In this document: positions 3,001 to 6,000 of the stretch, one piece after another
How positions within the stretch are numbered: position 1 is the stretch's first letter
How the letters are laid out: every line of letters starts with the position of its first letter
Assembly (NCBI GenBank): GCA_030159075.1
Contig: BROG01000235.1
Span: 1 to 64,000 of the forward strand
DNA length: 64,000 nt
Origin: Atrina japonica
Taxonomy: Eukaryota > Mollusca > Bivalvia > Pterioida > Pinnidae
Direction: 5' to 3'
The notes under the pieces: model-generated
Database searches by the model: none
Seen by the model: only the letters and a program-made list of their open reading frames with translations
What the model was told of the DNA's origin: nothing
Position numbers and translations under genes: made by a program

Positions 3001-6000
3001 GGTGAAGTGTCGGCATGCATACAAACGTACTAGCCTTTCAATGTGCATTTTGAGTGAGACAGATTAACCACACAATCTGCATTCTGAGTGAGACAGATTA
3101 ACCACACAATCTGCATTTTGAGTGAGACAGATTTACTAACCACACAATCTGCATTTTGAGTGAGACAGATTTATTAACCACACAATCTGCGTTTTGAGTG
3201 CGACAGATTTACTAACCACACAATCTGCATTTTGAGTGAGACAGATTTACTAACACACAATCTGCATTTTGAGTGAGACAGATTAACCACACAATCTGCA
3301 TTTTGAGTGCGACAGATTTACTAACCACACAATCTGCGTTTTGAGTAAGACGCTTCAAAGTTAGTAGGGAGTTGTAGGGCTGAACCACGACATCCGAGAT
3401 TTCATCAACATTCGGGAACACTGAGTATGTCTGTACTAACTTCTTAGGAAATCTAAAAATAAAAAGGAAATGGAAATGAGAAAATTGAGATAGATATATG
3501 ATGAAAAATCACTATTATTAGGATCTTTAAGGATTATTCTAATTATTATGGTGTGGGAGAGGTTTTGTTGTCATTGTTGATAAAACAATTATCTCAGTTT
3601 TTTCAAATACATTTATGTACGTACATACTGTCTATCTAACTTATTATAACTTGTTAGTTTTAAAGATGCCCCTGAAATTACTTCAATGTTCCAATCAAAT
3701 ATCAAACAAAATAGGGCTACATAATTATGTTTCTCCCATCTGTCCAGGTAAAAATTACATAGGTCATTTCCCAGTGCATTAGTCCAAATGGACAAGTTTA
3801 AATCTTCAATGATATTCATAAATAGTAATTCAAATCACAACTGAACTTAAATGTGCAACTGTCTAATTCAAAAGCAAAAATTGAATTTCTTGGACAAAGG
3901 TCATTGCTGTAATTACTTGGCCATGAGGACCCCTTATCTTTGCAATTTAATGGTATGTTATCTCTATAATCTTAAAACGACATAAAAAGTGCAAATAAAC
4001 CATTGTGTGTGAAACCTCAGATACAAAGTACAAACAGTTTACCTGTCATTTAATCTCTCCAGTAAATATGACCCCATTCCAGAGCCTGTACCTCCAGCTA
4101 TTGAATGACAGAGAACAAACCCCTACAAAAACAAAGTACACAGGTTTACAAACCCCTAAAATAAAAAGTACACAGGTTTACAAACCCCTACAAAAAGAGG
4201 TTTACAAACCCCTACAAAAACAAAGTACACAGGTTTTCAAACCCCTACAAAAACAAAGTTCACAGGTTTACAAACCTTTACAAATACAAAGTACACAGGA
4301 TTACAAACCACTACAAAAACAAAGTACATGGATTTACACCCCTTACAAATACAAAGAACACAGGTTTACAAACCCGTACAAAATAACAAAGTACACAGTT
4401 TCACAAACCTTTACAAATACAAGGTACATGGGTTTACAAACCCTTACAAAAAACAAAGTACACAGGATTACAAACCCCTACAAAAACAAAGTACACGGGT
4501 TTACATGACACATTTCACTCACTAATTTAAAATTTTTCCCGAAGTTATTTTCGCCCTTTTACAACAGAAAACATATTCATTGTCTTAAATTTTCCCTAAA
4601 TCACCATAGTCTCATGGATGGCATGTATGTATGTGCTTCAATTATTTAGCTAGAAAATTTCGCATTCATTTTAAATTCATCATTCCTCAGGAGCAGGAAT
4701 TTTCAGGTATACTGTACAGTATAAGAATTAATTACCTCTAAGCTGTCACTACCATCAGCTTCTCGATCTATAATGTCAAAAATTTCCTCATACAACTTTT
4801 CTGCCTGAAAAAAAGACATATATTCTTATTCAATTTCTGGAAAATGAGAGAACATTTATAACTGATGTTGTTAATCTATGTACAGCTTATCTTTGGCCTG
4901 TGATTCACTGATCTTATATTATGTTAACAGCAGTGCTCCCACTGCTTTTTCAGAAATAGGTTCTTGTACCCCATGGGTGAAAAAAATAGGGGTACAAGGA
5001 TATAAATCAGGGGTACACATATAGAAAATTAAGTCAAAAGCAAAAACCCAGTTTAATTTTACTCATCTCGTCCCCATTTTAATAGATGCAAATGTCTGTG
5101 GATCTGATGTAGGTGGTTTTTGCATGTCTGGGATCACTGAACAGCCTATTTGTGACATTATGACCTAGCAATTTTTAGCTTTGTACAATTTATCCTGTGT
5201 TCTACTGCTGTTATTCATGTTAACAGCCAGATTTTAGCTGTATACAGCCTATCCTGTGTTCTGCTGCTGTTAATCATGTTAACAGCCAGATTTTAGCTGT
5301 ATACAGCCTATCCTGTGTTCTGCTGCTGTTATTCATGTTAACAGCCTATTTAAGACATTATGACCTGGTGATTTTTAGCTGTGTACAGCCTATCCTGCTG
5401 CTGTTATTCATGTTAACAGTCAGATTTTTAGCTGTGTACAGACTATCTTTGACCTACGATCTGATGTTATTCATATGTGAACAGCCTATTTGTGACATTG
5501 TAATCTGGTGATTTTTAGCTGTGTACAGTCTATCCTTAACTTGTCTGCTGATGTTGAAATCAGATTAAGGTTTCATTATTTTATATTCAAAATTGATCAC
5601 ATGATGAAACTATACAGTCATATACCTGTGAGTAACCTGAAGCCCAATTATTGCCAGCTCCTCCTCCATGCTTGGACAGGTAGATGTTTTCTGGATTATA
5701 CAAATTTGCATAGGGAGAGTTCATTATTGTATTGATAACTCTTGGCTCCAAGTCCAGTAACACTGCTCTGGGAATATAATGTTCATCATCAGCCTATAAA
5801 TAATAGAAAATGTCAAACTTCAGTTAGGCTTTAAGGTAACTTAGGATTTTAAAATCATACAAAGATAGGCTACAACTGGACTGAAGATTTACATGCATAT
5901 AAAATTGCCCAATGGCCATTCTTCTCCTTTTCATAAACACTCAGTGTTTTAATTTCATGAAAGTCAAGTTCATTTCAGCATTAATAATTAAATCATCGAA

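Follow-up and report, generated by a model that had tools for sequence, protein, structure and literature searches.

The minisatellite at the 3′ splice site of exon 6 in a molluscan gamma-tubulin (TUBG) gene is most probably (a probability of roughly 0.85) a neutral array of the type called "mirages" in amphioxus, produced by tandem duplication across the intron 5/exon 6 junction. This reading is favoured by the anatomy of the repeat unit, the exonic origin of part of it, the recurrence of the same arrangement in the neighbouring RETREG gene, the abundance of minisatellites in the region, drift of the splice cores among the copies, and the lack of per-position enrichment of self-similar sequence at junctions. 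Three observations count against it, namely an excess of junction-spanning arrays when founding units are placed at random (3/10 arrays, against 0.79 or 0.70 expected), upstream AGs that score as high as the true site or higher, and a hint of purging at the G of the AG.

The acceptor array of TUBG exon 6

In the window (the whole stretch of 64,000 nt that was analysed), TUBG occupies positions 1-9,481 of the minus strand; ten exons (exons 1-10) were placed by means of splice sites and reading frame, and the remaining part falls outside the window. Joined, these exons encode 332 residues that align without gaps with residues 1-332 of the PDB gamma-tubulin chain 9g3x_g. Because this alignment is ungapped, exon 6 begins at the repeat copy nearest the exon, as the preliminary description of this DNA had proposed; a start elsewhere, which it had named as one observation that would overturn its reading, is ruled out. 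The features of this junction are as follows.

4122..4043, minus strand: TUBG exon 6, 80 nt (gene model and ungapped PDB alignment)
4115-4505, minus strand: exon 6 minisatellite (TRF: period 33, 12.1 copies, score 482)
4115-4147, minus strand: copy with the true exon 6 acceptor, abutting the exon
4123..4124, minus strand: AG of the true exon 6 acceptor (reading of the array, gene model and matrix score)
4156..4157, minus strand: nearest upstream acceptor copy, at -33 nt (matrix score 13.2, versus 10.8 for the true site)

The minus-strand consensus unit, AAACCTGTGTACTTTGTTTTTGTAG/GGGTTTGT (the slash marks the splice site), consists of a pyrimidine tract, TAG and the initial 8 exon bases, and most copies share this make-up with (T)AG; the consensus and the alignment of the copies thus agree with the earlier claim that the unit holds the whole exon 6 acceptor. 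The array had been placed at 4043-4505, of which TRF assigns 4115-4505 to the repeat, the remainder being exon 6 itself. Likewise, the "about twelve decoy acceptors" described before correspond to 12 copies, one with the true site and 11 upstream of it; the number holds, and the decoy role is unsupported, since the core columns vary like the others (see below). Among the 11 upstream copies, the AG is in place in six, displaced 1-2 nt downstream in four and missing (TAC) in one, and the full string TAG/GGGTTTGT is intact in four. The repeated exon bases of the TUBG arrays encode conserved residues (GFV and TQNADCV), which identifies the exon as the source of these bases. Tandem arrays are generally difficult to assemble, and the copy number may be wrong; nevertheless, the individual units can be told apart by substitutions and indels, and an assembly artefact is scarcely credible.

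Junction repeats elsewhere in TUBG and in RETREG

Repeats that span or flank an exon-intron junction were also found at three TUBG donors and at one acceptor of RETREG, a FAM134-type gene that neighbours TUBG on the plus strand.

3326..3452, minus strand: TUBG exon 7, with donor GTG/GTTAGTAAATC and first intron base at 3325
3039-3351, minus strand: exon 7 donor minisatellite (TRF: 38 bp, 8.6 copies)
1775..1855, minus strand: TUBG exon 9 donor region, with a degenerate TGCCACAAACT repeat flanking the junction on both sides
1..76, minus strand: TUBG exon 10 donor region, with a repeat across the junction that is truncated at the window edge
16101..16229, plus strand: RETREG exon 6 (gene model and homologues of the joined protein)
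15858-16114, plus strand: RETREG exon 6 acceptor minisatellite (TRF: 33 bp, 7.9 copies)

The array at the exon 7 donor, to which the preliminary description had pointed as a parallel, was recovered by TRF (3039-3351, period 38, 8.6 copies). Its unit contains the final 21 exon bases followed by GTTAGTAAATC, and GTTAGT is intact in 3 of the 7 full downstream copies scored, one degenerate tail copy being excluded. At exon 10, a 17-nt exon stretch (ATTGTTACATTTCCATA) occurs again within the first 23 intron bases at an offset of 56 nt; in 1482 mismatched exon/intron pairs, no shared stretch is as long as 13 nt. The exon 9 match is shorter (11 nt, a length reached by 4/1482 mismatched pairs), and as a boundary repeat it is only suggestive. 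The exact-match comparison of exons and introns flags exons 7, 10 and 9; it misses exon 6 of both TUBG and RETREG, where exon and intron have just 8 nt in common, and stretches of at least 8 nt are shared by 9/39 own exon/intron pairs and 276/1482 mismatched pairs. A dispersed element (TTTTACAACAGA...TCTCATGGATGG...) was observed at 2062-2630, where it adjoins the intron 8 array, and again at 4506-4730, where it adjoins the exon 6 array; the intron 8 array may be part of this element, and a stretch near 17600 (AAATCACTATAGTCTCATGAATG) is similar to it.

The RETREG gene comprises eight exons and matches Pfam PF24456. The top matches of its joined protein were to scallops (48-51% identity) and to Saccostrea and Mytilus (49%), with none above 51% among the 60 matches listed; scoring in this search was limited to the 7998 candidates with the most shared words. 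These homologies suggest that the DNA comes from a bivalve, probably a pteriomorph, and on the same matches amphioxus was rejected as its source. Array units at RETREG exon 6, such as TTTTACAG/TTATTTCTCTGATG and variants thereof, carry the acceptor plus about 14 exon bases, and the AG is kept in 5/7 upstream copies. The layout is that of TUBG exon 6, on the opposite strand, which rules out junction repeats that are specific to TUBG. Accordingly, the significance that had been attached to arrays at two consecutive exons of the same gene was not upheld: RETREG exon 6 is alike, and the coincidence is modest in a region with many arrays. A separate two-copy duplication in RETREG (14746-15011, about 131 bp) ends 12 nt before exon 4, with the acceptor excluded.

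TUBG and RETREG are arranged head to head within 1-19334. Human TUBG1 and RETREG3 are neighbours as well, and the pair may represent an old animal gene neighbourhood. Between exon 1 of TUBG and exon 1 of RETREG lies a minus-strand ORF of 98 residues (9657-9950) with a signal-peptide-like start (MARICSSLVLILILLW...), for which the Pfam search gave no match. A third gene was recognised as TMEM198 (Pfam PF13886), and a self-similarity scan showed no junction repeat at any of its coding junctions (0/6). Pfam was run on 20 ORFs picked by eye from 455 of at least 45 residues, and three of the 20 (two RETREG exons and one TMEM198 exon) were at or near the cut-off; with 20 of the 455 ORFs covered, exons between 20 and 34 kb and between 39 and 64 kb were possibly missed.

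Splice signals, array abundance and proposed origin

Splice cores are intact in 6/11 upstream copies at TUBG exon 6, 3/7 at exon 7 (tail copy excluded) and 5/7 at RETREG exon 6. When the core was slid at random along the units, with gaps in some exon 7 and RETREG rows placed by hand, 4431/20000 slides reached the core change observed over the three arrays pooled; this three-array test thus showed neither upkeep nor purging of the splice cores relative to the rest of the unit. For single arrays, the observed change was reached by 3/32 (TUBG exon 6), 9/33 (exon 7) and 15/32 slides (RETREG exon 6). The column that has changed most in the TUBG exon 6 array is the G of the AG (5/11), a hint that splice signals may have been purged there, although the pooled test is flat. 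A maintained decoy role was rejected, as the core columns are altered at a frequency similar to that of the other columns.

The strength of individual sites was scored with a home-made matrix, for which 17 other acceptors in TUBG, RETREG and TMEM198 served as training set; the acceptors of TUBG exon 6 and RETREG exon 6 and the donors of TUBG exons 7 and 10 were left out of training. The 99th percentile of its background of 823 intronic AGs was 8.3, with AGs and GTs inside arrays included. This splice-site score per unit, a check that the preliminary description had proposed, was no lower than that of the true site (10.8) for 3/10 upstream AGs at TUBG exon 6, namely those at -33 (13.2), -188 (12.3) and -89 (10.8), and lower for 7/10 (10.0 to -4.7). 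At RETREG exon 6, three of the seven upstream AGs (12.7, 8.4 and 7.1) scored higher than the true site (5.7). Why splicing would ignore the upstream AGs is not obvious, since these fractions score as high as the true site or higher. A scan for branch points (yTnAy) gave a single exon 6 match, at -40, and 3/19 acceptors (TUBG exons 3 and 10 and RETREG exon 7) had no match.

When joined to exon 5, all 10 upstream AGs of TUBG exon 6 give a stop codon in the extension or in exon 6, and all seven listed upstream AGs of RETREG exon 6 likewise bring in a stop. The upstream copies could therefore be imagined as functional decoys or poison acceptors, with premature stops tuning gamma-tubulin through nonsense-mediated decay, a possibility that would also suit the three high-scoring upstream sites at exon 6. 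The nearest functional precedent found is a C. elegans intronic minisatellite tied to alternative splicing and over-represented near alternatively spliced regions, according to the accessible text of PMC4039745. However, stops say little here, since intron extensions of this length usually meet one, and 5/12 further donor-like GTs at TUBG exon 7 have none in their extension (7/12 do; extension only, exon 8 excluded). As the decoy signals vary about as often as the remaining unit, no selection for decoying is seen; functional decoying is unsupported, and we consider it very improbable.

Alternatively, the upstream acceptors might be used at a low, unregulated level, as noise that reduces the amount of correct mRNA, which does not conflict with the array having arisen neutrally. 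Site scores of up to 13.2 point in this direction, as does a human boundary VNTR in CBS that is tied to reduced CBS activity in a title cited in the accessible part of PMC2630376, but amphioxus mirages are described without disturbance of splicing in the accessible parts of PMC3087553 and PMC3902484. On balance, such use is possible, if doubtful.

Minisatellites are abundant in the window: 25 arrays (TRF rows merged by hand, microsatellites and short TRF rows omitted) total 10,434 of the 64,000 bases, with 71 bases entering the sum twice. Ten arrays are located in introns of TUBG, RETREG and TMEM198, and three of these extend across a junction. With the founding unit of each placed randomly on its own intron, 0.79 junction-spanning arrays would be expected (P(≥3) = 0.037), and 0.70 with placement on any of the 19 introns (P(≥3) = 0.028); TUBG exons 9 and 10 are excluded from this count and would enlarge the excess. 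These P values are optimistic because the feature was selected for looking odd. Counted by position, junctions show no enrichment in self-similar sequence (3/39, versus 361/2406 intronic positions and 0/390 exon interiors) by a criterion of at least 24/32 matches, under which control positions are non-independent and exons 9 and 10 do not register. The earlier suggestion that the junction arrays are "more than chance" finds weak support under the founding-unit null and none per position; for a feature chosen because it stands out, it is a modest signal at best.

The same figures bear on a junction-seeking process that would put minisatellites at exon edges in this lineage, for example by starting repeats at pyrimidine tracts or where splicing causes damage. 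The count of three junction arrays out of 10 (P 0.028-0.037) and the further repeats at TUBG exon 10 and, weakly, exon 9 speak for such a process, but the lack of per-position enrichment and the optimistic P value would not recommend it, and pyrimidine tracts alone would be insufficient where both donors and acceptors are hit. We regard this process as improbable.

Two regions outside the recognised exons contain arrays with splice-site-like sequences. At 58972-61131, two adjoining 53-bp arrays carry acceptor-like sites in their minus-strand units (15 and 13 sites scoring at least 8), the first array also has 16 donor-like sites on the plus strand, and no exon was recognised alongside. At 42606-42961, the minus-strand unit of a 59-bp array ends in ...CACTTTGGA/GTAAGTAACCC, donor-like by eye and with no site scoring at least 8 in the matrix; this array might be a boundary repeat belonging to an unannotated TMEM198 exon in the 5′ UTR. 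The matrix applied to these arrays had array junctions in its training set.

For the neutral reading of the exon 6 array, the mutational mechanism that we infer is that a short tandem duplication spanned the intron 5/exon 6 junction of TUBG by chance and that the duplicated block then grew into the intron through slippage or unequal exchange. As the block would end inside the exon, each expansion would keep one complete exon beside its own acceptor; the protein would be unaltered provided that the exon-proximal acceptor is used, and the extra copies would be removed with the intron. The upstream acceptor copies would then be by-products that drift neutrally, and the same process would account for the exon 7 donor array, the RETREG exon 6 array and, probably, the TUBG exon 10 repeat. 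Use of the exon-proximal site is what we infer from protein conservation, since the conserved protein must be made. Exon-proximal sites were reportedly favoured in classic experiments with duplicated splice sites, too.

Comparison with known systems

In the literature searched, no boundary-spanning minisatellite was found in molluscs among the matches listed, with most subscription papers outside the coverage; the accessible part of PMC4732748 likewise yielded none, and that of PMC12783039, on intronic minisatellites of earthworm metallothionein, yielded no boundary repeats. In humans, PMC2630376 (accessible part) names a 31-bp VNTR in CBS, written c.1444_1467+7(16_21); read from this name, its unit would comprise 24 exonic and 7 intronic bases, covering the exon end and the donor, in 16-21 repeats. 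This VNTR shares with the arrays described here a unit that spans an exon-intron junction, but it concerns a donor only, in one gene, and is polymorphic in people. Human internal tandem repeats in segmental duplications, as presented in the accessible part of PMC2812944, have units of about 30 bp, some of them at exon-intron boundaries, and alter gene structure; they are said to make exons and introns longer and possibly to create new introns, whereas the coding exon is unchanged here.

The closest likeness is to the amphioxus mirages, minisatellite-like duplications of intron/exon boundaries reported for Adh3 and the globins BflGb6 and BflGb9 in the accessible text of PMC3087553, and for PGBD5 and troponin C in that of PMC3902484. 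According to the same portions of both sources, mirages occur at 5′ and 3′ boundaries with AG or GT in many but not all units, and the Adh3 data and the RT-PCR of globins are read there as pointing to undisturbed splicing. The arrays described here share the head-to-tail arrangement (12.1 × 33 bp and 8.6 × 38 bp in TUBG, 7.9 × 33 bp in RETREG), a unit that bridges exon and intron in a real coding gene, the occurrence at donors as well as acceptors, the retention of splice signals in many but not all units (6/11, 3/7 and 5/7) and the presence in several genes of one genome (TUBG and RETREG among the three genes examined, with 0/6 junctions in TMEM198). They differ in host, a bivalve rather than a cephalochordate, and in unit length, 33-38 nt as compared to 10-72 in Adh3 and 150-160 in BflGb6 (accessible text of PMC3087553). 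The likeness is drawn from one genomic sequence, with an intact gene model standing where splicing was reported for amphioxus.

Splice junctions were already suggested as birthplaces of minisatellites for amphioxus. That they are recurrent birthplaces in this bivalve lineage as well, with the spliceosome taking the exon-proximal site so that duplicates are tolerated, is a tentative and rather unlikely generalisation; if true, such arrays would let the rules of splice-site proximity be tested in nature and would keep supplying material from which new introns and exons could form. The TUBG arrays provide, in a highly conserved gene, naturally occurring substrates with multiple acceptors and donors, and together with RETREG they extend boundary-spanning minisatellites to the molluscs, a new phylum as far as the literature was searched.
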